From the NCBI RefSeq assembly GCF_024345975.1, contig NZ_JAGQCD010000017.1, positions 1 to 64,000 on the forward strand: DNA of 64,000 nt. Direction: 5' to 3'. The translations under genes were made by a program, and so were the position numbers. This stretch comes from Cyanobium sp. Cruz-8D1 (GTDB lineage Bacteria > Cyanobacteriota > Cyanobacteriia > PCC-6307 > Cyanobiaceae). Below, one piece after another: positions 1,909-15,874 of this stretch (its first letter is position 1; each line of letters starts with the position of its first letter). The notes beneath the pieces were generated by a model. That model saw only the letters and a list, made by a program, of their open reading frames with translations, was not told where the DNA came from and did not search any database.

Positions 1909-2176
1909 GCCAGGGCAGCGGCAGCTCGAGCAGACGGTCGATGCTGGCCTGATCCTGGGCGGCAGCGCCGGAATCCTCCAGATCCACCAGCAGGGCCGTG
2001 GTCTGCTCCGGCGTCAGAGAAAACAGCGTGCGATCGAGCAGCACATCCCGTGCTCGCTCCTGGCAGCTGCGCAGGATGAATTCGGTGCGGCTGATCCCTT
2101 CTGCCGCTGCGGCCTGATCAATCAGCTGGCGCTGCTCAGCCGAGGCCCGCAGCTGCAGCACCTGATCGCGCGCCAT
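1895..2176 (-). CDS. DUF1778-type ribbon-helix-helix antitoxin (TacA-like)
   Basis: 93 residues. The N-terminal half is a ribbon-helix-helix of DUF1778 type (LRASAEQRQLIDQAAAAEG followed by ISRTEFILRS). The C-terminal half (SLTPEQTTALLVDLE) is the extension that neutralises the GNAT toxin in this family. ATG 2176 is preferred over a GTG three bases upstream. The gene precedes and overlaps the acetyltransferase gene. By family behaviour, the antitoxin and the toxin-antitoxin complex should repress their own promoter in the short gap before 2216. Confidence 0.9.
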   Translation of the reverse strand: MARDQVLQLRASAEQRQLIDQAAAAEGISRTEFILRSCQERARDVLLDRTLFSLTPEQTTALLVDLEDSGAAAQDQASIDRLLELPLPWHAPA

Positions 2177-2215
2177 CACCCCACTCTCGTTGTCATGACA
2201 TTGTAGTGCGCTCTT

Positions 2216-4354
2216 TTAGACCGGTTGGTACACCGCCAGGGCGGCCTGCAGCCGCTCCTGATGCTCCTGGCGCAGCTCCGGCGGGGCTTCAATGCGGATG
2301 CCGGCGCCGAAGCCGAACAACCAGTTGCGCAGATCGATGTCGCGCTCCATTGTCCAGGGAGGTAGGTCAAGCTCCACCGGATAAGGGTGGGTGTCGCTGG
2401 GGCTGCCGGGCTCCAGCACGTGCGGCGCGTTGGGGTGATGCCACCAGTGCTCACCGGGCAGGGGCCTGGAGAAGCGGGTGTGCTCGATCGGGTACCGCTG
2501 CAGGCCTTCGCGGATGAAGGCAAAGCACCAGCCCTGGCAGCAGAAGCGCAGCGTCACCAGCTGCTTGACGCGGATCCGGGCATTGGGGCTGGCCAGCCGC
2601 AGCTGGCTCTTGAGGTCATGGCCGAAATAGATGCCGCCGCTGTGGTGCAACAGCAGCTCCAGGCGCCGCAGGGCCTGGCTGTGGGCCTCGTCGCTGCGCC
2701 GGTTGCCCCGTTCGCTGCGGCGCAGGGCCAGACGGTCGATCCGTTCGCTGCGGATCAGGCCCACGCCGGTGCCGATCGCGTCTTCCTCGAACACCAGATA
2801 CCAGCCGATGTTGTGGAACAGCAGCTGCAGCGGCCACACGCGCAAGGAGCCGTTTGGGCTGTCCGCAAAGGAGCCCACCGAGACGTAGCGCTCCAGCTCG
2901 ATCCGCCGCCGTTCCACGATCGCCGTTTCCAGGGCCTCGGCCTGCCGCTCGGCGGCCAGGGAATCGGGCCGCACCAGGGCACTGCTCACGATCGAGCGGT
3001 TGGCGAACGCCCGCACCGGCGTGGTGCCGTCCACGGCGATGCCTCCCCAGGCGAGCCGCTGCTCCAGCTCCCGCAGCAGATCCTGGGCGGTGGGATCGGC
3101 CAGCCGGCCGGCGGCCTGGCTCACCACCCCGTGGATCTCCCGCAACCGGTGGGCCGAGAGCAGGGCGGTGCCGATGGCATAGCCGTGGCGCACGTTGTCG
3201 TTGCGGTGGCGGAAGCCATAGGGGGTGAGCAGCTTCTCGAGGTCCTTGCGCAGGGTGGCGGCCTCGGAAGGCAGGTAGGCGCCGGGGATGGCCTCGGTGC
3301 GCTCGATCAGGTGCTCGGGCAAGGGCACGCCCTCGGCTTGATCAAAGGGCTGCTGCAGCAGGTGGCGCAGCAGGGTGAACACCCGCATGAACACCGGCCC
3401 ATCGCCCATGGGCGGGAAGCCACCGTTCACCCCACCGGGCCAGGGGCCTGTGGCTGGCGGCTCAGGCTGGGGCGGCGCCAGCTGGATCGGTGCCAAGGAG
3501 GGCTCGGCGCTGCAGAAGCCATTGGCCTCCAACCAGGCCAGATCCCCCCGGATCGCGGTGGCATCGCCGTAGCAATCGCCGTGTAGACGCCGCAGGTAGG
3601 CCGCCGCCTGATCCGCCAGGTCGCCCTCGGGCAGGGGCGACACGATCGCCTCCAGCTCCGCGCGGGTGGCGGGGTCGGCTGCGGAGAGCTCGGGGTAGGT
3701 GGTGAGCAGGCGCAGCAGGTGCAGCAGCCGCTCCAGATCCAGTAGGCGCGAGTACCCGTGAAGCTGGAAGCGTTTCTCCCGGTTGCGGGCCGAGCGGATG
3801 CGGTGATCGAGGCGCGCCAGCTCATCACGCAGCAGGGCCTCCAACTCGCGGCCGTGGGTGGGCACCACCGCCACCACCGCCGCGAATCCCTCCGCCCGGG
3901 ATGGCCCGAACGCCGGATCGGCCAGGGCGGCCGCCATCTCGCGGATCACCGGCTCGGGCACCAGGCGCTTGCGGGTCTGATTCCACTGCAGACAGGTGGC
4001 GAGCGGCGTGTAGAGCCACCAGCCGATCCACTCCACCGGCACCGGCAAGGTCAGGGCCTGGGTGATCGCCAGGCGCCAGGGCCGGCGGGCATGGGTGGCA
4101 TCGAGGATCACCGGCGTACCGGCGGCCACGGCCTCGCGGAGGCGCTGGTGCAGCAGGGCTTCGATGTCACGCCACGGGCCCTGCACCGCCGCGTCGCCGA
4201 ACAGCTCGCCGCGCACCACATCGGTGGAGAGCACCACGGCACCGGTGAGCTGGGCCAGCACGCCAGCCAGGGTGGTCTTGCCGCTGGCGGGCGGGCCGAT
4301 CAGCAGGTGGCAGCGCAGGGGCGCAGGCGTGGGCGCAACAGGTGGGCTGGTCAT
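2216..4354 (-). CDS. P-loop kinase/AAA protein fused to a WYL domain
   Basis: About 712 residues from ATG 4354 (a GTG at 4384 adds ten). The N-terminus is a nucleotide kinase-like P-loop domain: Walker A GPPASGKTT near residue 20, an STDVVRGELFG element and ILDATHARR, as in zeta-toxin or polynucleotide-kinase-like enzymes acting on nucleic acid or nucleotide phosphates. A long helical middle follows. The last third carries a WYL-type sensor region (GWYLVFEED, RIDRLAL, then a WCX-like end). WYL domains bind nucleic-acid ligands and regulate defence genes. The combination suggests a ligand-gated kinase or nucleic-acid repair sensor. The gene is divergent from the LysR-like gene; the 170-base gap should hold both promoters. 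Confidence 0.75.
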   Translation of the reverse strand: MTSPPVAPTPAPLRCHLLIGPPASGKTTLAGVLAQLTGAVVLSTDVVRGELFGDAAVQGPWRDIEALLHQRLREAVAAGTPVILDATHARRPWRLAITQALTLPVPVEWIGWWLYTPLATCLQWNQTRKRLVPEPVIREMAAALADPAFGPSRAEGFAAVVAVVPTHGRELEALLRDELARLDHRIRSARNREKRFQLHGYSRLLDLERLLHLLRLLTTYPELSAADPATRAELEAIVSPLPEGDLADQAAAYLRRLHGDCYGDATAIRGDLAWLEANGFCSAEPSLAPIQLAPPQPEPPATGPWPGGVNGGFPPMGDGPVFMRVFTLLRHLLQQPFDQAEGVPLPEHLIERTEAIPGAYLPSEAATLRKDLEKLLTPYGFRHRNDNVRHGYAIGTALLSAHRLREIHGVVSQAAGRLADPTAQDLLRELEQRLAWGGIAVDGTTPVRAFANRSIVSSALVRPDSLAAERQAEALETAIVERRRIELERYVSVGSFADSPNGSLRVWPLQLLFHNIGWYLVFEEDAIGTGVGLIRSERIDRLALRRSERGNRRSDEAHSQALRRLELLLHHSGGIYFGHDLKSQLRLASPNARIRVKQLVTLRFCCQGWCFAFIREGLQRYPIEHTRFSRPLPGEHWWHHPNAPHVLEPGSPSDTHPYPVELDLPPWTMERDIDLRNWLFGFGAGIRIEAPPELRQEHQERLQAALAVYQPV

Positions 4355-4524
4355 GGCCACAGCGTGGCCGCTGGGGCGTGCCACGGCAAGGCTCTACAAG
4401 CGAAAGAGCAGATTTAGGACCAAACCACGACTGGGATCTGTCTGACGGCTTTGCTATTTCGCAGGAAGAACGGCACCAAAACCGCCTGCGCTGCTGAGGC
4501 TGCTCCCAGCGCCTCATCCATCCC

Positions 4525-5445
4525 ATGGCTTCCCCGCGCCCCCCGTCGCTGGCCCAGGCCCATCACTACCGCCTGCCGGAGCTGCTGCACGACATCCGCC
4601 TGCTCGATCTGCTGGAGCTCTGCGGCACCACCGTGCAGACCAGCCGTCACCTGCAGCTGAGCCAGCCCACCATCAGCCGCCGCTACCGGCTCCTCTCGGA
4701 GGATTTCGGCCTGGTGCGCGATCGCTGCCAGCTCTGGGGCTGCGGTTATGGCACCTCGGCCGCGATGCGCCTGCTGCGGCTGGGTTGCCGCGCCCATCGC
4801 CTGGCTGCTGGTGTCGCCCGGATCGGCAGCGATCTGCTCCATCACCCCCTGCTGGCGGGCTGCCCCTGGCTGCTGCCCACCCCTCAGCGGTTCCGGGCGG
4901 CGGCCAACTGGCTGGAGCTGGTACGCCAGGGCGTGCTCGATGGCGCCCTGATCTCAGGCCTGGAGCTGGAGGAAGCAGAAGGACTGAACCACCAGGAGCT
5001 GGAGCTGCTGCCGCTGGGGGAGCTGCCCCTGGCCCTGGCGTTCTGCCCCGAGGCGCCAGTGCTGGTGGGCGCTGTCCCCGGCAGGCCGGCCTCAGGGGGG
5101 CGAGTTGCGGAGGTGCTGGTGCCCGATCGCGGCCTGGCGCCCGGCCTGCGGCGGCTCCTGCGGGAGCTGGGGCTCCCCCTGCGCAGCGGGGGCAACAGCC
5201 TGCAGACCCCAGATGACTGGATCAGCCGGATCCAGGGCAGCACCCTGGCTCTGGTGGTGGCCGATCGGGAGGCCGACACCTGGGCCTCCCTGCAGCGCTG
5301 GCCCTTTGGCCACGGGCCCCAGGCTTCCCGACCCCACAGTCCGGTATGGCTGGCGCTGCCGGCCGACTGGCAGGAGCACCCGGTGTTGCGGCACACCGCC
5401 CGGGAACTGGGCCGGATCGGCGCCGCGCAACAGCTGGAGGGCTGA
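4525..5445 (+). CDS. LysR-like transcriptional regulator
   Basis: 306 residues, the usual LysR length. Residues about 25-60 form an N-terminal helix-turn-helix (TVQTSRHLQLSQPTISRRYR, with SQPTISR as in LysR proteins). The rest has the alternating helix/strand pattern of a periplasmic-binding-type effector domain, ending in VWLALPADWQEHPVL. Many picocyanobacteria carry such LuxR/LysR hybrids of low similarity, so the effector cannot be predicted. It precedes the defence operon on the same strand with a 159-base gap and could regulate it, or the divergent WYL gene. Confidence 0.75.
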   Translation: MASPRPPSLAQAHHYRLPELLHDIRLLDLLELCGTTVQTSRHLQLSQPTISRRYRLLSEDFGLVRDRCQLWGCGYGTSAAMRLLRLGCRAHRLAAGVARIGSDLLHHPLLAGCPWLLPTPQRFRAAANWLELVRQGVLDGALISGLELEEAEGLNHQELELLPLGELPLALAFCPEAPVLVGAVPGRPASGGRVAEVLVPDRGLAPGLRRLLRELGLPLRSGGNSLQTPDDWISRIQGSTLALVVADREADTWASLQRWPFGHGPQASRPHSPVWLALPADWQEHPVLRHTARELGRIGAAQQLEG

Positions 5446-5604
5446 AATTATGCGCTCCGTGCATAGATCCAAGACTCGCGGCTCCAAGTGCTTCTGTTGT
5501 GCTGCCACATCGCTTCCGCTAGGTGCAGACTGGCCGCAGCGTCACCTGCCCCCCATGCCACCCCACCCGCCACAGGCGGTCGAACCACAGGGGGGCACGC
5601 CGCG

Positions 5605-8600
5605 ATGACCGCCCGCTTGGAAGACCTCATGCCCGATGCCCAGGTCAGGGGCCTGGTGGGCCGCGAGGCTGTCCGGATTGTGTCCGCCGAGATGCTGGGG
5701 GAGGCCGCTTGCAAGGTGGTGTACCGCGGGCAGGACGGCGCCCTGGGCGAGCAGCTGCTGTTCCGCAGCAATGAGGCCGACCTGGAGCTGGTGGGTGGTG
5801 GCCGCAAGTGGAGCTTCGAGGGGGACGGCGAGCTATTCCGGCTGGTATCGGAGGCCGAACGGATACGGCTGGCCTACCTGTTCGACCCTTATGTGGCAGT
5901 AAGCAGCAGCACGATCGACCCGCTGCCCCACCAAATCAGCGCGGTCTACGAGCACATGCTCCCCCGCCAGCCAATGCGCTTCCTGCTGGCGGACGACCCC
6001 GGCGCAGGCAAGACGATTATGGCCGGCCTGCTGATCAAGGAGCTGCTGATCCGTGGCGAGCTGGAGCGCTGTCTGATCGTGGCGCCGGGCTCTCTGACAG
6101 AGCAGTGGCAGGACGAGCTGAAGGAGAAGTTCGAGCTGCAGTTCGAACTGCTCACCCGCGATCTGATCAACGCCACCGGCCTGGGTAATCCCTTCGCGGA
6201 GCGGCCGTTGCTGATCGCCCGGATGGATCAGCTCTCGCGCGATGCGGAGCTGCAGACCCGACTGGAGCAGGCGCCCGAGTGGGACCTGGTGGTGTTCGAT
6301 GAATCCCACCGCATGAGCGCCCACTACTTCGGCAATGAGGTGAAGCGCACCAAGCGCTACGACATGGGTAAGCGGGTGGGCAGCCATGCCCGCAACCTCC
6401 TGCTGATGACGGCGACGCCGCACAACGGCAAGGACGAGGACTTCCAGCTGTTCATGGCCTTGCTGGATGAGGACCGCTTCGCGGGGCAGCAGAAGGATGC
6501 CGTGCACCGCAGCGACCCCACGGACCTGATGCGCCGGCTGGTGAAGGAAGACCTCTACACATTCTCGGGAACCAAGCTGTTCCCCGAGCGCCGCAGCTAC
6601 ACAGCCGAATACGAACTCTCCGAGCCTGAGAAAGTGCTCTACGAGAAGGTGACCGAATACGTGCGCGACGAGATGAACCGCGCCGACCGCAACGCCAACC
6701 AGCAGGGCGGCGCCAAGAAGCGGGTCAATGTGGGCTTCGCGCTGATGACCCTGCAGCGGCGGCTGGCCAGTTCACCATTCGCCATCCATCGCTCGCTGGA
6801 ACGACGGCGGGAGCGGCTGGAGAGCCGGCTCAAGGAGGAGCGCCTGCTCCTAGAGGGCCGTGAGGCGGGCAGCAAGCTGGTTCTTGATGCCAAGTTCGAC
6901 CCAGGCGCCATCAGCGACGACGACATCGCCGAGTTGTATGAGGAGGACACCGCCGGGGAAGTGGAAGCCACTGAGGAGGCATTCACCGATAACGCCACCA
7001 CAGCCCAGACCCTCGAAGAGCTGGCGTCCGAGATCGAAACCCTCAAGGGCCTGGAGAGGCTGAGCAAGAAGGTGGTGGATCAACGCTGCGATGCCAAGTG
7101 GAGCGAACTTGATCGGATCCTGGATGACGAGCAGATGCGCGAGCCCAATGGCGGCCGCCGCAAGCTGGTGCTGTTCACCGAGTTCAAGGACACCCTCACG
7201 GATCTAGCCATCAAGATCCGCGATCGGCTGGGCCGGCCGGAGGCGGTGGTGGAGATCCATGGCGGGGTGGCGCGCGACAAACGCCGCCAGATCGTGCATG
7301 CCTTCATGAACGATCCGCAGGTGGTGGTGCTCCTCGCCAATGACGCTGCCGGGGAGGGTGTGAACCTGCAGCGGGCCCACCTGATGGTCAACTACGACTT
7401 GCCCTGGAACCCCAACCGGCTGGAGCAGCGCTTCGGGCGCATCCACCGGATCGGCCAGAAGGAGGTCTGCCATCTCTGGAACCTGCTGGCCAAGGACACC
7501 CGCGAGGGGGATGTCTACATCCAGCTTCTCCACAAGCTGGAGATCGCCCGAGAAGCCCTCGGCGACAAGGTCTTCGACGTGCTCGGGCAACTTTTCTCAG
7601 GTCGGTCACTGCGGGACTTGCTGATGGACGCCGTGCGCTACAACCAGCAACCCGAACGGCAGCTCCAGATGGATCTGGAGATCGAAGGGGCCGTGAACCA
7701 GGAGCATCTGCGGCAGTTGCTCAACGAGCGGGCCCTGGTCCAGCAGGGCATGGATGTCCACAAGGTGGAGCTGCTCCGGCAGCAGATGGAACGGGCGATG
7801 GCCCGCCGCATCCATCCTCACTACGTCCACGACTTCTTCATCCAGGCGTTCCGGCGGCTGGGCGGCAAGGTGTTCGACCGGGAGAAGGGCCGCTACGAGA
7901 TCACCTACGTGCCACCGCTGCTGCTTGATCGCAACCAGCAGATCGGTTTCGGGATACCCGTGCATGCGCGCTACGAACGGATCTGTTTCGAGAAGGACCA
8001 TGTTGCCGATACCCCGCGGGCGGAGCTGGTGAGCCCTGGCCATCCGCTGCTGGAGGCTTGCCTATCCCTGGTGTTGGAGCGTGATGGCGCCGTGCTCGGC
8101 CAAGGGGCGGTGCTGGTGGATGAACGGGATCTGGGCACTGAGCCGCGGATGCTGTTCTGCCTGGAGCATGGGCTGCAGGACGGCCGCCGCAACCGCCATG
8201 GAAAGCAGGAGTTGGTCTCGAATCGGCTGCAATTCCTGGAGATCAACCGCCAGGGCGAGGTTGCCATTGCTGGCTCTGCGCCCTACCTCGACTACCGACC
8301 CTTGAAAGAAGGGGAGCGTGAGCAGATCGAAGGGGTGCTCAGCGAGAGCTGGTTGGCGCAGGATTGGGATCAGTTGGTGATCACCCAGGCCCTCACGACC
8401 CTGGTGCCCGAGCACCTGGAAGAGGTGAAGGGTGAACGGCTGGAGCGGATTGCCAAGGCAAGCCAGGAGATTCAGTCACGGATGCAGCGGGAAATCAACC
8501 TCTGGTACCGCCGCTACGAAGAACTCAAGCTGCAGGAGTCGGCCGGCAAACAGGTGCGGCTCCCGGCCCAGGTGGCCAAGGAGCGCTACGAACTCCTGCT

Positions 8601-9132
8601 GGCCCGACTGGAGAAGCGCAAGGTCCAACTGGCGCTGGAGGCTCAGATCAGCGCCAAGGTGCCGATCCTCAAGGGCGGAACCCTGGTGATTCCGATGGGC
8701 TTGCTGCTGGAGGCCAGTGGCGCCGCAGAAGAAGCCGGCCCCGATGCAGCCGCCCGGAAGCGGGTGGAGCTGTTGGCGATGAACGCCGTGTTCGAGGCGG
8801 AGAAGGCACTGGGGCGCATGCCACGGGACGTGAGTGCGCAGCGGGGCATCGGCTACGACATCGAATCGATGGATGACCAGGGCGATCTGTTCTTCATCGA
8901 GGTGAAGGGCCGCATTGATGGGGCCGACTCGGTGACGCTCACGATCAATGAGGTGAATACCGGCCGCAACTCGCCCCACCGTTTCCGGCTGGCCCTGGTG
9001 GCCGTGACGGGGGATCAGGCTGCAGCGCCGGTCTACGTAAGCGGCATCGACTGGGGGGTGCCGGGCTTTGGCGATACCCAGATCACCAAGAACCTCCAGC
9101 AACTGCTGGCGGCTGGCAACAGGGCTCATTAA
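5605..9132 (+). CDS. SNF2/DEAD-type helicase with C-terminal DUF3883
   Basis: About 1175 residues from ATG 5605; the open frame runs further upstream but that part does not look coding. Superfamily 2 helicase core: Walker A LLADDPGAGKTIMAG, Walker B/motif II VVFDESHRM, motif III LLMTATPHNGK, and motifs V-VI around NRLEQRFGRIHRIGQ. The last 120 residues (GYDIESMDDQGDLFFIEVKG) match DUF3883, a PD-(D/E)XK-like domain of defence proteins. Helicases of this type are the first gene of DUF1156/DUF499 defence operons, related to DISARM-like systems, and both partners follow here. The next gene begins one base after this stop. The helicase itself appears intact. Confidence 0.92.
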   Translation: MTARLEDLMPDAQVRGLVGREAVRIVSAEMLGEAACKVVYRGQDGALGEQLLFRSNEADLELVGGGRKWSFEGDGELFRLVSEAERIRLAYLFDPYVAVSSSTIDPLPHQISAVYEHMLPRQPMRFLLADDPGAGKTIMAGLLIKELLIRGELERCLIVAPGSLTEQWQDELKEKFELQFELLTRDLINATGLGNPFAERPLLIARMDQLSRDAELQTRLEQAPEWDLVVFDESHRMSAHYFGNEVKRTKRYDMGKRVGSHARNLLLMTATPHNGKDEDFQLFMALLDEDRFAGQQKDAVHRSDPTDLMRRLVKEDLYTFSGTKLFPERRSYTAEYELSEPEKVLYEKVTEYVRDEMNRADRNANQQGGAKKRVNVGFALMTLQRRLASSPFAIHRSLERRRERLESRLKEERLLLEGREAGSKLVLDAKFDPGAISDDDIAELYEEDTAGEVEATEEAFTDNATTAQTLEELASEIETLKGLERLSKKVVDQRCDAKWSELDRILDDEQMREPNGGRRKLVLFTEFKDTLTDLAIKIRDRLGRPEAVVEIHGGVARDKRRQIVHAFMNDPQVVVLLANDAAGEGVNLQRAHLMVNYDLPWNPNRLEQRFGRIHRIGQKEVCHLWNLLAKDTREGDVYIQLLHKLEIAREALGDKVFDVLGQLFSGRSLRDLLMDAVRYNQQPERQLQMDLEIEGAVNQEHLRQLLNERALVQQGMDVHKVELLRQQMERAMARRIHPHYVHDFFIQAFRRLGGKVFDREKGRYEITYVPPLLLDRNQQIGFGIPVHARYERICFEKDHVADTPRAELVSPGHPLLEACLSLVLERDGAVLGQGAVLVDERDLGTEPRMLFCLEHGLQDGRRNRHGKQELVSNRLQFLEINRQGEVAIAGSAPYLDYRPLKEGEREQIEGVLSESWLAQDWDQLVITQALTTLVPEHLEEVKGERLERIAKASQEIQSRMQREINLWYRRYEELKLQESAGKQVRLPAQVAKERYELLLARLEKRKVQLALEAQISAKVPILKGGTLVIPMGLLLEASGAAEEAGPDAAARKRVELLAMNAVFEAEKALGRMPRDVSAQRGIGYDIESMDDQGDLFFIEVKGRIDGADSVTLTINEVNTGRNSPHRFRLALVAVTGDQAAAPVYVSGIDWGVPGFGDTQITKNLQQLLAAGNRAH

Positions 9133-9133
9133 C

Positions 9134-10609
9134 ATGACAAGTAATGATAATGCGGGTGATCAGGTGAGTCTACTCGAGCTTTTAGGAATTGATGGCTGGT
9201 CAGAGAGTGAAAGACTAAGCGGATGGCCCAATGTCGACGATGATCATTTTGCCATACGGACTCTTGAACTAATTCGATATCGTTGCTTTGATACTGTTAA
9301 GCTTGATTTTCACCCAAAACTAACGTTATTTTCAGCACCCAATGGGGAAGGCAAGACAGCAATTCTTGATGGAGTTGCGATCTCGCTTCGGCTCTTTGTC
9401 GATACTATACAGAAGCAGGTGAGTTCTCCGGGATTCAAGAAAGAAGACATTCAACTTTTCGTTGCCCCCGGTGGCAGTATGGAGAACTATCTACCTCAAG
9501 AGCATACAAAGTTAAACGCGACGGCGATTCTCTTTGGGCATTCAGTATCCTGGGCAAGAGAGCTTGGATCAGATCAGCCAAAAGCAAAGACTACAATCAA
9601 GGATGCCAAAGATCTTGCCAAAATTGCGAAAGAACTTTTGAAAGGAATCCAGCCTCGTCCTTCCTCACAGGCTGGCGAAGAAGCGCCTGTCACTCTTCCT
9701 CTAATATCTTATTACGGAACTGGGAGACTGTTTTCTCAGATTCCACAGAAAAGCGCTTACGTTGGTAGCAAGTCTCGGCTAAGTGGCTACAGGGATTGCC
9801 TTAATCCAAATTCAAGCTATAAGGCATTCCTTGCTTGGTTCTCCCCAATGAGCAGCGAAGCTCAAGCAGAACACGTCAGCGGGCTATCGGCAGGTCATCA
9901 AGCCATTGCGAGACTTAATGCAGTAAGCGATACCATTCAACAAATTTTAGAACCCACTGGCTGGAAGGGGGTTCGATGGGACTATGTCAATCAAGAGTTA
10001 CTGGCTTTTCATGCCGATGGTCGCGTGTTTCCAGTACGCCTTCTATCAGATGGAGTGCGCAACATGCTCGCCATGGCTGCCGACATGGTGTTTAGATGCT
10101 CTCAGCTAAATCCACACTTGGGAAGGGAAGTGGCAAACCTCACTCCGGGGATTGCACTTATTGATGAAATCGATATGCATCTCCACCCTGAGTGGCAACA
10201 GTCCGTGCTTTCTCGGCTTATAAAGGTATTTCCCAAAATCCAGTTTCTTGTTTCTACTCATAGCTCTGAAGTGATAAGCACTATTAGCAAGGAGCATATT
10301 CGAGTGATCAAAGATGGTCTCGTAACCAGCCCGATAAAACAAACATCAGCAGTACCTAGTGATCGCATTCTCTCGGATGTAATGGGTGTTCATCCTATCT
10401 GGGGAGAACTTAAAGCCGCGAAGGAACTAACTCGTTATCATGCACTAATCAGCCAAGACCTTGAGACATCAACAGAGGCCGAAAGTCTTCGTGCAGATCT
10501 CATCGAGCATTTTGGAGAAAGCTCTCAACAGATTGTTGAGTGTGATCAAGCTATCCGCCTTCGAATGATCCGCAAGAAAATTTCAGATCGCTCTGGCAAG
10601 GAGGGTTAA
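9134..10609 (+). CDS. ptuA: Septu-like PtuA ATPase
   Basis: About 491 residues; ATG 9134 lies one base after the helicase stop. An ABC/SMC-like AAA ATPase: Walker A SAPNGEGKTAILDG, signature-like LLSDGVRNMLAMA, Walker B GIALIDEIDMHLHPEW and the H-loop FLVSTHSSEVIS. It is followed two bases later by a small HNH gene of the TIGR02646/PtuB type, so the pair matches Septu, an anti-phage ATPase-nuclease system. The gene is clearly richer in A+T, with more AAA/ATT codons, than the helicase before it and the DUF1156 gene after it: a sign of separate acquisition. The gene symbol rests on the pairing, not on a database search. Confidence 0.85.
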   Translation: MTSNDNAGDQVSLLELLGIDGWSESERLSGWPNVDDDHFAIRTLELIRYRCFDTVKLDFHPKLTLFSAPNGEGKTAILDGVAISLRLFVDTIQKQVSSPGFKKEDIQLFVAPGGSMENYLPQEHTKLNATAILFGHSVSWARELGSDQPKAKTTIKDAKDLAKIAKELLKGIQPRPSSQAGEEAPVTLPLISYYGTGRLFSQIPQKSAYVGSKSRLSGYRDCLNPNSSYKAFLAWFSPMSSEAQAEHVSGLSAGHQAIARLNAVSDTIQQILEPTGWKGVRWDYVNQELLAFHADGRVFPVRLLSDGVRNMLAMAADMVFRCSQLNPHLGREVANLTPGIALIDEIDMHLHPEWQQSVLSRLIKVFPKIQFLVSTHSSEVISTISKEHIRVIKDGLVTSPIKQTSAVPSDRILSDVMGVHPIWGELKAAKELTRYHALISQDLETSTEAESLRADLIEHFGESSQQIVECDQAIRLRMIRKKISDRSGKEG

Positions 10610-10611
10610 GC

Positions 10612-11292
10612 ATGAAGCTCCTATACCGCACGCCTCTCAATCCGAATTTCTTAACCCAATACAATCCGAACACTGATAAATGGTCTGTCAAAGAACCTTG
10701 CACTCCATCCAGTGACCATCGAAATCAGATTTGGATTGCGTTATTAAGCATCCAGGGTGGTGTATGTGCCTACTGTGAAGCTGGACTTCAAAACGGTCGT
10801 CACATTGAACATTTCGCAAATCGAGGCAAACGCCCCGACCTCACGTTTGAATGGACCAATCTTTTTGGAAGCTGTAATAGAAATGATTGCTGCGGACATT
10901 ACAAGGACAGCAGCCGTAATCCTTTTAGTGGCTATAATTTAGCTGATCTTATCAAGCCCGATAGGGAGGATCCTTGGCACTTTCTTGTCTTCGGCTCTGA
11001 CGGTAGGGTTTCCGTACGCGATGGGCTCTCAGTGAACGACAAAATACGCGGCCAAACAACTATTGATGTTTTCAACCTGAACGCACCTCATCACGTCCCA
11101 GAGAGGTTGAGTAAATATTATTGCGTTCAAGGCCATCTAGGCTTAATCGAAGAGGATGCGGAGGAAGCAATAGTTGATTTAATTTTAGATGAAATCCGCT
11201 CTTCAGTATTGCCTCATTTGGACACATATTCATCTGCGGCATTGCAGCCCTTAGAGCTAATCCTTGGCCCTGAGAATTATTCGACCCCATGA
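10612..11292 (+). CDS. ptuB: Septu-like PtuB HNH endonuclease (TIGR02646-like)
   Basis: 226 residues. A zinc-finger HNH nuclease: [11 protein letters not shown] gives the first Cxx[13 protein letters not shown] holds the catalytic His pair, and [17 protein letters not shown] supplies Asn and further Cys/His ligands. This is the layout of PtuB and of retron-associated TIGR02646 nucleases. It starts two bases after the ATPase stop and its own stop overlaps the DUF1156 start (11289) by four bases, so it is translationally embedded in the operon. The low G+C of the ATPase gene continues to its last codons and ends there. Confidence 0.85.
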
Positions 11293-11966
11293 CCCCCCAC
11301 CCCGTCCACCGCCGCAAGAAGCTGATCGAGATCGCTATCCCGCTGGAGGCGATCAATGCGGCCTCGGCGAAAGAGAAGAGCATCCGCCATGGCCACCCGA
11401 GCACCCTGCACCTGTGGTGGGCGCGGCGGCCTCTGGCGGCGGCGCGGGCGGTGATCTTCTGCCAGATGGTGGACGACCCCTCGGCGGTGCCGGAGGAGTT
11501 CCCTACTGAGGAAGCCCAGGAGAACGAGCGGCTGCGGCTGTTCGGATTGATCAGCGAGCTGGTGACCTGGGAGAACACCACCAACGAGCAGGTGCTGAAT
11601 CGGACGCGGGCAGAGATCCACCGCAGTTGGCGGAGGGCCTGCGCCGACAACGCCGATCACCCCGAGGCTGCAGAGCTGTTCAACCCAGAGAAGCTGCCTG
11701 GATTCCACGATCCCTTCGCCGGTGGTGGGGCGTTGCCGCTTGAGGCGCAGCGGTTGGGGCTGGAGGCCTACGCCAGTGATCTGAACCCGGTGGCGGTGCT
11801 GATCAACAAGGCGATGATTGAGATGCACAAAATGGCAACCGTATCAGCCATTCCCGTCGACTGCGTTGCAGATAGCATTGGTTCGTTTAGTTGTTGGCGG
11901 CTGATCTCAGCCACACTTTTCGCTAATCCTCTTTTAAATCTTGGCAAGGTTATGCTTATGCCATGA
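11289..11966 (+). CDS. truncated DUF1156 protein (N-terminal fragment of DNA methyltransferase)
   Basis: The first about 178 residues match the start of DUF1156 adenine-specific DNA methyltransferases: an N-terminus with [19 protein letters not shown], then [20 protein letters not shown] and the AdoMet-binding [20 protein letters not shown] with [16 protein letters not shown]. Family members are about 900-1000 residues. Here similarity stops near 11823, the G+C drops, and a meaningless tail of about 47 residues runs to a stop at 11964-11966. The catalytic (D/N)PPY part is therefore absent and the protein should not methylate DNA. The stop overlaps the start of an HNH gene by four bases. Confidence 0.85.
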
Positions 11967-12886
11967 AACTGTATATTGGCATCACCGATACGGATTGGTT
12001 CCGTTACCTCCGCAGCAGTAATGCTGATGAGATGAACTTCTGGCGGCCAAAGGCTACCAACCAGTTCAAGGCCTTGGAGCCTGGCGAGCTTTTCCTATTT
12101 AAGTCAAAATATCCTCATCATCGGATCGTGGGTGGCGCATTCTTCGTACGTCACACGACTTTAAGTCTTGATCTAGCGTGGAAGGCCTTCGCAACAGCCA
12201 ATGGTACCGATTCCATGGAAAAGTTTCGACGCATGATTCAGGGGCATCGAAGGGATAACGAATTCAACCCGATCATTGGATGCACAATCTTGACTCAGCC
12301 GTTCTACCTGGAAGACAATGAGACCATTGACCCACCATCAGACTGGTCGGGCAACATCGTTACTGGCAAGAGCTACGAGATCGCGCCGGGCAGCGAAGGC
12401 CTGAGGTTGTTCGAGCAGGCTCAGGCAGTCTTTTCGGCTAGCTATCCGAGAAATAGTACAGACAAGCCATATGAACCAATTGACAGATTCGGCAAGCCGC
12501 AGCTTGTGGCTCCAAGGCTTGGTCAGGGAGGCTTTCGTATTCTGGTCATGGATGCCTACTCGCGGAAGTGTGCAATCACAGGGGAGAAAACACTGCCAGT
12601 CCTGGAAGCAGCGCACATTAAGCCCTATTCCGAGGAGGGACCACATGAGGTTTCCAATGGCATCTTCATGAGATCCGATCTGCACACATTATTTGATGGT
12701 GGATATCTGACTCTGACAAGAGAGTTCAACATCGAAGTCAGCAAGCGAATTCGCGAGGAGTTTTCAAACGGCCGTGAGTACTATGCTCTGCATGGAAGGA
12801 AATTGGTGACGTTGCCAGAGAATCCATCAAGCAGGCCAAACCTTTCGCACCTTGAGTGGCATCAGAATAATAGGTTTCTTGGCTAA
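11963..12886 (+). CDS. HNH endonuclease with EVE-like N-terminal domain
   Basis: 307 residues. The C-terminal half carries an HNH_2-type nuclease: [20 protein letters not shown], then [19 protein letters not shown] and [10 protein letters not shown], with AAHIKP, N and LH..FD at the catalytic positions. The N-terminal 150 residues ([33 protein letters not shown]) look like a PUA/EVE-type base-reading domain. That architecture fits a modification-dependent restriction enzyme; this is inferred. It sits in a low-G+C block between the broken DUF1156 and DUF499 genes, and its ATG overlaps the stop of the chimeric DUF1156 frame. Confidence 0.82.
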
Positions 12887-13024
12887 CTGAATGAGCCTGA
12901 TGAATGTTGAAATTATTGCAGTAAGTTGCAGTGGGCTAGGGGCTGCTATCCTGAAATCTAATGTAGATTTTGTATCAAGTGGCTATCACAGTCTCATTCA
13001 CCCCAGCCGTGGCCAGGCCGCGCC

Positions 13025-15490
13025 GTGTTGGTGGGCACCGCCTTCAGCCCCTCCAAGGCCACCACCTATCCCGATGGCACCGTCGTCAACACCCTCTGGG
13101 GTGAACTCGCCTATCAGCTCGGTGGGGCCCATGGCTATGCCCTTATCGCCAGCAGTGATCTGCAGCGAGTGGCCCCCGGTGCCCAGGATCTGGCCGCCCT
13201 GTTCACCGCCCATGCCCCTTGCCTGATCCTGGTGGATGAGTGGGTGGCCTACGCCCGCAACCTGGTGAGCAACGCCACCCTGCCGGCAGGCACCTTCGAT
13301 TCACAGGTGTCCTTCGCGCAGGCGCTCACCGAAGCCGTGAAGCAGGTGCCCAATGCCCTGCTCTTGATCTCTGTTCCCCAGAGCGTCAACGAGATCGGCG
13401 GCAATGATGGCGAGAAGGCCGTCTCGGCCCTCAAAAACGTGGTCACCCGCATCGCCTACCAATGGCGGCCTGCCACCGGCAATGAGGGCTTCGAGATTGT
13501 GCGGAGGCGGTTGTTCGAGCCGATCACCACCAAGGAAGCCGGCGCCGCCCGCGATGCGGTGGTCCGCAGCTTCACCGACCTCTATTCCCAGAACCCCTCA
13601 GAATTCCCGGCCGAAACACGAGAAGCGGGCTACCGCGACCTGCTGATCAGCGCCTATCCGATCCACCCTGAGCTGTTCAAGCGCCTCTACGACGACTGGA
13701 GCACCCTCGATCGCTTCCAACGAACTCGGGGCGTGCTGCGCCTTCTGGCGCTCACGATCGAGGGCCTCTGGAACAGCAACAGCAAGGACCTGCTGATCAC
13801 GCCCAGCTCGATCCCGCTGGACGACAACGACGTCAAGAACGAGCTGGTGCGCTTCCTCGACAACCAGTGGGAGCCGATCATTTCCCAGGATGTGGATGGC
13901 CCCCAATCCACCCCCACCCGGCTGGATACGGAGAACCCCAACTTCGGCCGTGTCAGCGCCTGCAAGCGGGTGGCCCGCTCCCTCTACATCGGCACCGCCC
14001 CAGATGCGGATGCCCTGCGCAAAGGGATCGGCGATCAGCGGGTGAAGCTCGCCTGCGTGATGCCGGGCGAGCCGATCGGCGTGTTCGGCGATGCCCTGCG
14101 CCGCCTCGGCGATCGGGGCCGCTTCATCCAGCAGGACGGCGACCGCTACTGGATCGACACCCGCCCCAACCTCAACCGCACCGCCGAGGAGCACCGCGAG
14201 AGCTACCTGCGCCAGCGCGAAGAGCTGCTGGCTGAACTCAACACCCGCCTTGCCCAGGAGGCCACCAAGCGGGGCGACTTCGCCGGTCTTCATGCGGCCC
14301 CTCTGGAAAACAGTGCCGTCCCCGATGAAGCGGCCACCCGGCTCGTGCTCCTCGCGGCGCAGCACACCCATCGCAAGGGCGTTGAGTTCAGCGCGGCGAG
14401 GCAATGGACCGCAACCTGCCTGCAGAGCCGGGGCAACAGCCCCCGCCAGTTCGCCAACACCCTGATCTTCCTGGCTCCCGATGAAGCCAATCTTGAAAAC
14501 CTCTTCCACGCCCTGGCCGATCGCCGCGCCTGGCAGCACATCATCGACAACGAGCTGGAGCTGAACCTCACGGTCGCCCAGAAGAACCAAGCGATTGGAA
14601 AGATCGCGGAAGCGACCCAGGCCGTGGCCAGCCGCATCCCAGAAACCTGGTGCCACCTGCTGATCCCCTATCAGAGCAAGCCGGGCCCCGGTGGGGCACT
14701 CTGGGACGAGAAGAAGCTCACCAGCGGCAAGGGAAGCCTGGCCGAGCGGGCCAGTGAGCGCTGCGTGCAGGAGGACGTGCTGTTCCTGCAACTTGGTGCC
14801 CGCCGCATCCGCGACGACCTCAACCGCTTCCTCTGGACCGACAAGCCCCATGTGGCAGTCCGCGACCTTGTCGACTGGAGCCGCAAGTACCTCTACCTGC
14901 CCCGCGTGGCTACCGATCAGGTGATCCTCAACGCCCTGGTGAATCAGCAGGCTGCCCTAACCGGTGAAGCCACATTTCACCTTGCCGATGACTTCGATGA
15001 GGGCACTGGGCGCTACAGCGGCTTGAGGCCCCAGCAGGGCCCCAACACTGGCCCGGCATCTTTGACGAGCCTGGTGGTGAAAGACGAGGTAGCGGCCGTC
15101 CAGATCGAGGCGGATCGGCTGGCTGAAGAGGAGCGGAAGCGACAGGCCTCGAAGCCAGAAGTGGTTGGGGCCGGTGGAACGGGGCCGGGCATCGCCAAGC
15201 CACCGGTCATTGGGCCTGGACCAGATCCCATTCCCCCACCACCGCCGCCAAAACCCAGCCTCCCCACCACCTACACCGCCTCGGTGAAGTTGGACTCGGT
15301 GACGGCAGGTCCCCAGGTCGGCAAGTTCCTGGTCGAGGTGATGTCGCACCTGCAGGCGCTGCCAGGGGTGGAGATTGAGATGTCCCTGGAGGTCAAGGTG
15401 CGGGCGCCTGGCGGTATCGACGAGGCCACAGCGCGGATCGTGCTGGAGAACTCGTCGGCGCTGAAGGTGGATAAGCCGGGTCTGTACTAA
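13025..15490 (+). CDS. N-terminally truncated DUF499 ATPase-like protein
   Basis: About 821 residues from a GTG at 13025, though recognisable sequence in the same frame begins near 13001, before any start codon. DUF499 proteins of defence operons are usually well over 1000 residues and begin with a P-loop. Here the Walker A region is missing and the frame opens at VLVGTAFSPSKATTYPDGT. A probable Walker B remains (CLILVDEWVAYARNL), with a proline-rich hinge near residue 720 and the usual end. Upstream DNA is low G+C and belongs to the inserted HNH segment. Probably a pseudogene or inactive remnant unless the GTG start yields a useful protein. Confidence 0.82.
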   Translation: MLVGTAFSPSKATTYPDGTVVNTLWGELAYQLGGAHGYALIASSDLQRVAPGAQDLAALFTAHAPCLILVDEWVAYARNLVSNATLPAGTFDSQVSFAQALTEAVKQVPNALLLISVPQSVNEIGGNDGEKAVSALKNVVTRIAYQWRPATGNEGFEIVRRRLFEPITTKEAGAARDAVVRSFTDLYSQNPSEFPAETREAGYRDLLISAYPIHPELFKRLYDDWSTLDRFQRTRGVLRLLALTIEGLWNSNSKDLLITPSSIPLDDNDVKNELVRFLDNQWEPIISQDVDGPQSTPTRLDTENPNFGRVSACKRVARSLYIGTAPDADALRKGIGDQRVKLACVMPGEPIGVFGDALRRLGDRGRFIQQDGDRYWIDTRPNLNRTAEEHRESYLRQREELLAELNTRLAQEATKRGDFAGLHAAPLENSAVPDEAATRLVLLAAQHTHRKGVEFSAARQWTATCLQSRGNSPRQFANTLIFLAPDEANLENLFHALADRRAWQHIIDNELELNLTVAQKNQAIGKIAEATQAVASRIPETWCHLLIPYQSKPGPGGALWDEKKLTSGKGSLAERASERCVQEDVLFLQLGARRIRDDLNRFLWTDKPHVAVRDLVDWSRKYLYLPRVATDQVILNALVNQQAALTGEATFHLADDFDEGTGRYSGLRPQQGPNTGPASLTSLVVKDEVAAVQIEADRLAEEERKRQASKPEVVGAGGTGPGIAKPPVIGPGPDPIPPPPPPKPSLPTTYTASVKLDSVTAGPQVGKFLVEVMSHLQALPGVEIEMSLEVKVRAPGGIDEATARIVLENSSALKVDKPGLY

Positions 15491-15520: not shown

Positions 15521-15874
15521 ATGACAGAGGACCACGTCGCAATACCTATTCCAATATCGTCCGAGGACGACGAGCCAGACTACTTGGAATACATTAAGGG
15601 TTTTCGAGATGAACTTCGTCCTGCTCTTGACCTTAAGGTCGACGATGGAGACTGCCGGACGACGTACCTTGATCACGAGTTCACTGACGCCACCATGGCA
15701 GGAGATCAGATAACCATTGATTACGAGGTCACGACCGACACTTATTACGGATGTAAAGATATAGACAGCCTGGGCTCAGTGTGGAGGGCAATCACGGGGA
15801 CAAGCAATGGGGCCCATTGGATCTTCCCGCACTACACCTATCCCGATGACAGGTCAACATTTGAGGAGTTCTAG
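15521..15874 (+). CDS. acidic hypothetical protein
   Basis: 117 residues, ATG start, strongly acidic (EDDEPDYLEY, DDRSTFEEF). Alternating strands (GDQITIDYEVTTDTYYGC) suggest a small beta-rich fold. No family recognised. It follows the DUF499 remnant by 30 bases on the same strand, in A+T-richer DNA like the other inserted parts of this block. Small acidic proteins beside defence nucleases can be inhibitors or DNA mimics, but nothing in the sequence proves that here. Confidence 0.6.
   Translation: MTEDHVAIPIPISSEDDEPDYLEYIKGFRDELRPALDLKVDDGDCRTTYLDHEFTDATMAGDQITIDYEVTTDTYYGCKDIDSLGSVWRAITGTSNGAHWIFPHYTYPDDRSTFEEF

Follow-up and report, generated by a model that had tools for sequence, protein, structure and literature searches.

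In the window, the whole 64,000-nucleotide stretch of Cyanobium sp. Cruz-8D1 DNA analysed here, a gene for a PtuA-like ATPase and a gene for a PtuB-like HNH nuclease lie between the first two genes of an operon that is identified as Hma (helicase-methylase-ATPase) by PADLOC scores of 1496 bits for HmaA, 328 bits for HmaB and 780 bits for HmaC (Table 1; G and L numbers are our handles for genomes and loci). The packing is tight, with the hmaA stop codon ending at 9132, the ptuA ATG at 9134, and the hmaB ATG at 11289 overlapping the 3' end of ptuB by four bases. The original prediction had placed such a pair between a helicase and a DUF1156 gene, one base after the former and overlapping the latter by four, and both the PADLOC PtuA1 and PtuB1 assignments and the mapped ORFs agree with it. 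PsaA and PsaB are encoded in the genome, as expected of a cyanobacterium.

Table 1. Features of the embedded pair and its carrier operon, in window coordinates
Feature	Position	Strand	Description	Basis
hmaA	5605..9132	+	SNF2-type helicase with C-terminal NOV_C domain, intact	PADLOC HmaA
Cargo segment	9114..11286	+	Unaligned in closest relatives	blastn against L144, L145
ptuA	9134..10609	+	ABC-type ATPase, 491 aa	PADLOC PtuA1
ptuB	10612..11292	+	HNH nuclease, 226 aa	PADLOC PtuB1, TIGR02646
hmaB stub	11289..11966	+	DUF1156 domain and methyltransferase motif I (DPFAGGG)	PADLOC HmaB
Near-identical segment against G430	11787..12886	+	9 of 11 hundred-base bins 97-100%, others 89 and 96%	Identity profile
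Second cargo HNH gene	11963..12886	+	HNH_2 (PF13391), 307 aa	Pfam
hmaC remnant	13007..15490	+	Residues 275-1113 of 1113	tblastn, PADLOC HmaC
Deletion junction	13018..13022	+	Near-blunt, about 3 shared bases	DNA blocks against G430

PtuA matches the PADLOC PtuA1 model with 445 bits (E 1e-133) over residues 41-483 of 491, while PtuB matches PtuB1 with 177 bits (E 9e-53) and, at 109.5 bits, passes the TIGR02646 cut-off of 52.15. The closest solved structure to PtuA is that of 8ee4 PtuA (212 bits), and PtuB scores 93-99 bits against retron type I-A PtuB chains and 38 bits against 8ee7 PtuB; in both proteins the motifs align with those of the solved chains. PtuA carries APNGEGKT (aa 68), LSDG (304), ALIDEID (341) and STHS (374), which we take to be the Walker A, signature, Walker B and H-loop motifs respectively, and PtuB carries CAYC (52), HIEHF (64), TNLFGSC (82) and CGHYKD (94), with the catalytic H and N kept in HIEHF and TNLFGSC. 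Two adjacent genes, ATPase then HNH, with no reverse transcriptase partner, are the arrangement of Septu type I, and the kinds of motif reported as required in an E. coli Septu (Walker A/B and H-N-H; PMC13096335) are all present, although the window pair is encoded inside another operon and is distant from the Septu systems that have been studied.

The pair also resembles the effector of type I-A retrons (Ec78/Eco7), in that retron I-A PtuB chains give PtuB its best scores and it passes TIGR02646, but at 491 aa PtuA is nearer to Septu 8ee4 (465) than to the approximately 550 of retron PtuA. Neither protein reaches the cut-off of its NCBIfam equivalog from the retron pair, PtuA with 255 against 500 required, about half the cut-off, and PtuB with 140 against 150. 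No RVT_1 domain was found in the window's own genome at E <= 1e-5, in a search that was positive in 3 of 14 control genomes, and there was no Rfam match, retron RNA included, at the gathering threshold within positions 1-25000; on these two grounds we rejected the reading of the pair as a retron effector.

The helicase of the carrier operon is complete, its match spanning PADLOC HmaA model positions 3-1169 of 1176 with the motifs GAGKT, DESH and EVKGR present. Its start is less sure: the mechanical ORF runs from 5488, while similarity begins near 5605 in most relatives and further upstream in a few, DNA alignments begin at 5599-5612 in seven relatives, and tblastn of HmaA extends to residue 1-12 in L147, L148, L151 and L152. 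The DUF1156 and DUF499 genes of the original prediction are fragments and not whole genes. The hmaB stub keeps about 179 of about 963 codons (PADLOC HmaB positions 3-189 of 967), its blastn homology to full hmaB ending at 11824 (codon 179) in L032 (G364), L145 (G424), L146 (G531) and L149 (G408), and it has no counterpart of the catalytic DPPY found at aa 566 of HmaB in G364. The hmaC remnant has lost about 274 N-terminal codons, with a PADLOC HmaC match that starts at model position 128 of 941, and since it begins at about residue 275, the HEPN-like RNKWAH (aa 84-89) and the Walker A GGGKTH (aa 238-239) of its relatives are missing. Relative to G430, about 1.35 kb that includes the hmaC 5' end is absent at the deletion junction. 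No second HmaB was found in the window's genome at E <= 1e-20, nor a second HmaC at E <= 1e-5. The locus thus has the hmaA-hmaB-hmaC order and best PADLOC matches of Hma for all three genes, but the truncated hmaB and hmaC are without the catalytic DPPY and the Walker A motif. Hma here has no functional methyltransferase or ATPase motor, and as a three-part system it is probably inactive. Codon changes private to the window number, silent to replacement, 38 to 6 in hmaA, 7 to 0 in the hmaB stub and 8 to 4 in the hmaC remnant; by these counts the remnants do not look like genes long out of use, so that either the breaks are recent or some remnant is still useful.

A second cargo gene, for another HNH protein, sits between the hmaB and hmaC remnants, its ATG overlapping the stop codon of the stub. 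The protein matches the HNH endonuclease 6yex weakly over residues 172-263, and single-sequence structure prediction gave a mean pLDDT of 31 and was set aside. Its amino acid identity is 98% to the homologue in G430 and 91% to that in G566, where the gene likewise follows an hmaB N-terminal part and, in G566, precedes hmaB C-terminal remnants; G430, the closest relative (HmaA 93% identical), has the same HNH gene, yet its hmaC is complete (1110 aa). Window and G430 are 77-94% identical across the hmaB stub (11287-11786) and nearly identical beyond it (Table 1), and dS between them is 0.045 for the HNH gene (nine silent and six replacement differences) against 0.46 for hmaA and hmaC. The segment 11787-12886 was therefore recently exchanged between lineages, after those of the window and G430 had parted. 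Between the window and G566 the HNH gene has a dN of 0.045 and a dS of 1.8, which is strong conservation. The protein was found in 5 of 300 family genomes (E <= 1e-20), the window's own included; the matches in G579 and G585 are incomplete or disrupted, as are the additional copies in G430 and in the genome of the window. Among viral contigs searched with it, 20 stretches matched a pattern and none encodes a relative.

The borders of the embedded pair are defined by DNA homology. In blastn alignments with G430 and G424, homology ends at 9113, in the last hmaA codons, and restarts at 11287, with the hmaB ATG following two bases on; the right border falls at 11289 in L146 and L149. Identity to G424 is 88-91% across hmaA, the hmaB stub and hmaC, and to G430 84-90% across hmaA and hmaC; close relatives (HmaA 92-93% identical) hold other content in the slot, with homology breaking at the same borders. 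HmaA occurs in 22 of 300 family genomes (E <= 1e-60), again counting the window's own, and our same-family set of 17 operons is made up of the 15 of 20 fetched regions with both hmaA and hmaB plus L032 and L033; it leaves out L157 (SLFN_AlbA_2 beside hmaA), whose hmaB was missed by the table though found by tblastn, and L221 of G566 (SLFN_AlbA_2/HATPase and ParA-like genes before hmaB), in which hmaA is off the contig. None of the 17 has PtuAB at the hmaA/hmaB junction. Five slots are empty (61 bases or fewer; L032, L149, L151, L154 and L156) and 12 contain 0.7-3.2 kb of other sequence: a VapBC-like pair in L145 (G424) and L150 (G437), of which Pfam identifies the PIN domain and the antitoxin, lacking a Pfam match, is so named by us; partial VapB matches in L144 and L147 (genomes G430 and G573); a UvrD/GajB-like helicase in L146 and L148; a protein with a weak beta-propeller match in L152; a DUF4917/PDC-S21 protein in L158; an HEPN match below the cut-off in L155; and content without assignment in L033, L153 and L159. 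ORF X425 (G378 and G543), for which Pfam gave no match, is possibly not a real gene. The original prediction held that a complete two-gene system had been slotted between the helicase and DUF1156 genes and that this operon type has a cargo slot, and conceded that the pair would be ancestral if most related operons carried it; the homology breaks and the tabulated junctions uphold the first two claims, and carriage of the pair by most same-family operons is not what we find.

Composition changes abruptly at the same place. The GC of ptuA is 0.461 and that of ptuB 0.452, against 0.643 for the helicase ORF, with GC3 values of 0.396 and 0.432 against 0.834, and none of 160 background ORFs is as low as ptuA or ptuB in either measure (mechanically picked ORFs of at least 200 aa from 284 kb of the same genome, namely 11 of 20 fetched stretches, the other nine being all N, and the window, excluding window ORFs that start at 5.4-16 kb). 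A second A+T-rich block, absent from the original prediction, spans about 11825-13018, and the second HNH gene within it (GC 0.499) is matched by 0 of 160 background ORFs in GC and by 4 of 160 in GC3. However, in each of the 13 other embedded operons where both genes could be compared (L088 was not compared and L070 has no hmaA), PtuA likewise has a lower GC than hmaA, by 0.02-0.07 with a mean of 0.047 in rounded values; the gap of 0.18 in the window is the largest among those compared. A+T-richness is therefore partly a habit of these PtuA genes. The prediction that both genes are visibly A+T-rich is confirmed against the helicase ORF and the genome background, and the step of 18 points stands, but low G+C does not suffice as the sole argument for insertion; we argue for a foreign origin of the pair because homology breaks at its borders, not from G+C alone.

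Elsewhere in the phylum PtuA occurs in 27 of 244 genomes (E <= 1e-30), of which one is the window's own and the other 26 lie outside the window's family at 38% identity or less. Even the nearest PtuA reaches 43% identity in its best-matching segment, and no close donor was found; plasmids gave four records at E <= 1e-40, the best at 37% identity. Among 67 PtuA relatives from named genomes, 12 have hmaA and/or hmaB on the same strand at a distance of 3 kb or less, counting L088, where hmaA is 1.9 kb and hmaB 5.8 kb away. Eight of these are closely flanked by both genes, L052, L065 and L087 in Verrucomicrobiota, L079 in Planctomycetota, and L080, L099, L100 and L102 in Pseudomonadota, with no match to PtuB in a search of L065; L053 and L078 have hmaA only, L070 (Acidobacteriota) hmaB only, and L088 (Actinomycetota) a looser order. 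Nesting of PtuAB between these two genes is seen in at least three phyla besides that of the window. At E <= 1e-100, HmaB was found in 15 of 398 genomes of a Pseudomonas-centred sample and 9 of 288 of a Verrucomicrobia-centred one, and one region each was annotated from 13 of the 15 and from 8 of the 9 (the ninth being L052, already among the PtuA loci), with both borders visible in nine and seven respectively. PtuAB occupies the slot in one of the nine (L183) and two of the seven (L191 and the divergent L194), and two and one slots are empty; the others contain HEC-09/NYN (L176, L177), DUF4145 (L181), HEC-08/DUF3644 (L184), PDC-S06 (L186), a weakly TmtA-like protein (L188), an AbiL-like protein (L189), YhcG/PDC-S02 (L190), HEC-01A (L195), and dynamin with Fic (L196). 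Cyanobacteria have an HmaB match in 51 of 386 genomes (E <= 1e-20), and PtuAB is in none of the 17 slots with both borders (from 20 regions of 19 genomes; L032 and L033 are among the 17). The window agrees with nesting of the HEC type: its module, flanked by hmaA and hmaB and in their orientation, occupies a site at which other operons carry different modules.

We consider it likely that the window contains a stand-alone Septu type I module, free of a reverse transcriptase, in the hmaA/hmaB slot of a cyanobacterial Hma operon, where it probably replaced earlier cargo. Replacement is the simplest history because a VapBC-like pair occupies the slot in G424 and G437 and partial VapB matches remain in G430 and G573. 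Cassettes may be swapped by recombination in the conserved hmaA and hmaB ends, and a swap at these ends would place the new genes on the hmaA message; it is the spacing that suggests co-expression of the pair with the Hma operon, and promoter-like sites are at chance level (4 found against 3.9 expected).

The cargo slot itself is not new, since the nesting of PtuAB in Hma is already in print (PMC8565338, PMC12255303, PMC11411939), and as a discovery of such a slot our analysis therefore adds little. In the parts of the literature available, Hma is described as first noticed through its frequent occurrence with Septu type I (Payne 2021, PMC8565338), 'Septu in Hma systems' are named (PMC12255303), genes embedded in Hma clusters are reported (PMC11411939), and 'Hma-embedded candidates' (HEC) are treated together with guilt by embedding (PMC12988326, PMC10855318), HEC being credited to a Payne 2024 preprint cited in PMC12988326, PMC11411939 and PMC12255303. 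Hma is there grouped with DUF499-centred BREX-related systems, with nucleases near or within related loci and HNH linked to OLD-ABC ATPases (PMC12839542). Like HEC and Septu in Hma, the window has a defence module inside an operon, but its carrier is decayed and a second cargo gene lies inside hmaB, and its borders and the likely replacement of VapBC-like cargo have been mapped. The tgvAB or darTG2 genes in type I restriction-modification loci (PMC11411939, PMC12255303) likewise form a complete two-gene defence module set among another system's genes, though both carrier and cargo differ and the tgvAB carrier is reported as active (PMC11411939). What is new here is the mapped borders, the decaying carrier, the second cargo site inside hmaB and the recent exchange of the HNH segment; the literature covered, which excludes preprints, yielded no description of this locus or of an HNH gene inside hmaB. 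The nesting of defence systems has been used to find new ones ('guilt by embedding'), and mapped borders, differing cargo in relatives and a dying carrier bear on how cassettes are exchanged and on whether cargo needs a working host operon.

By analogy with studied relatives, PtuA would be an ATPase that holds and controls PtuB, and phage infection would activate the HNH nuclease PtuB to cut host tRNA-Tyr, or phage DNA as in another Septu, halting phage multiplication at the cell's expense. In an E. coli Septu, tRNA-Tyr is reported to be cut in the variable loop upon phage infection, with the Walker A/B and H-N-H residues needed (PMC13096335); the available part of a second study has PtuAB of retron-Eco7 depleting tRNA-Tyr and that of retron-Eco4 likely not (PMC11555353). 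The window pair has the corresponding motifs and may cut tRNA-Tyr as its relatives do, but the target cannot be read from homology, because both proteins score below the retron equivalogs and PtuAB targets vary (PMC11555353).

More tentatively, Hma operons of this cyanobacterial family could be exchange platforms in a wider sense, in which cassettes (the VapBC-like pair, the UvrD-type helicase, the DUF4917 protein, propeller-like proteins, PtuAB and an X-hmaB block) are swapped through recombination between hmaA 3' and hmaB 5' ends, a second site is used inside hmaB, and cargo outlives its carrier, as PtuAB and the HNH nuclease are intact while hmaB and hmaC are destroyed; the stub and the HNH gene would possibly be kept as a new working unit.

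If the preferred reading is right, PtuAB would act independently of Hma. A functional link between the two, with PtuAB for example acting as a guard triggered by phage inhibition of the Hma helicase or methyltransferase, would account for the very tight spacing in the window, for the 4-base overlaps with hmaA in L052, L053, L065, L100, L183 and L191, and for the repeated return to the same slot. We think it unlikely, however, given that the slot is used by many unrelated modules, that just 12 of 67 PtuA relatives were found beside Hma, and that ptuAB is intact here while hmaB and hmaC are broken. It is also rather improbable that the hmaB stub and the HNH gene, together with the shortened hmaC, constitute a novel functional version of Hma, with the HNH protein in place of the methyltransferase and PtuAB as an extra. 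The same HNH gene follows a stub in three genomes (window, G430 and G566), this gene is strongly conserved in the window and G566, and there is no excess of replacement changes in hmaA and the stub; but the stub is frameshifted in G430, the stub tails of the window and G566 are unrelated, and hmaC is complete in G430, whereas the window copy starts only around residue 275 and the G566 copy, judged by DNA match, around residue 290.

The possibility that PtuAB belonged to this operon type from the start and was lost by most relatives has to be weighed against the PtuA tree. Of its 79 sequences 16 are embedded, 60 are not and 3 are unclassed, after 11 rows were reclassed by flank length (first classing 16, 49 and 14). 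Embedding changes at least 12 times on the tree, eight of these changes being forced by well-supported branches, and the label is weakly clustered (16 of 500 shuffles are as low). PtuAB has therefore moved into or out of the slot many times, and the source of the window copy cannot be named; the window PtuA falls in a supported set of nine (SH-aLRT 100), seven embedded and two free, and its nearest row, L051, is free-standing, although its exact sister is unsure because the tree method was quick and the branch is long (1.56). That set, with its majority of Hma-embedded members, and the recurrence of the same gene order in several phyla would fit an ancestral origin, but one is very unlikely in view of those changes, the step in composition, the other tenants at the same borders and the lack of PtuAB from all 17 same-family operons, although their HmaA is up to 93% identical to that of the window; on the last of these counts we rejected an ancestral five-gene operon. 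That the A+T-rich blocks and the hmaB and hmaC breaks are artefacts of a chimeric assembly is hardly credible, for although the genome is a draft of 108 contigs and the ptuAB insertion and hmaC deletion are observed in it alone, the hmaB/HNH junction is common to G430, the cargo ends exactly at gene borders, and contamination of the genome is given as 0.15%.

Several further observations concern this and related loci. After hmaC, at 15521-15874, the window has an A+T-rich ORF of 117 aa (GC 0.51) with no Pfam, PADLOC or NCBIfam match, and a counterpart at the corresponding site of G531 (L146 15498-15854); ten long ORFs elsewhere in the window, some of which may not be genes, had no NCBIfam match at E <= 1e-20. 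Between the HNH gene and hmaC of G430 (L144 9629-10143) are letters like the remains of another toxin-antitoxin pair. Genes for ABC-type ATPases (AAA_15/AAA_21) lie between hmaB and hmaC at L191 3544-4950 and L042 6126-7532, which suggests a third cargo position. In L154 (G387), 2052-6970 when flipped, hmaA and hmaB are followed by a further copy of the final 87 or so hmaA codons, by a 361-aa ORF whose ending is similar to that of hmaA, and by another hmaB; the hmaA 3'-end copy before this second X-hmaB block is a trace of cassette duplication. L033 (G378; 7435-13255) has two complete tandem hmaB genes, both of GC 0.50, between hmaA and hmaC of GC 0.63-0.65, and in L150 (G437; 8022-9599) a 525-aa ORF, transposase-like by eye, splits hmaB near codon 254.
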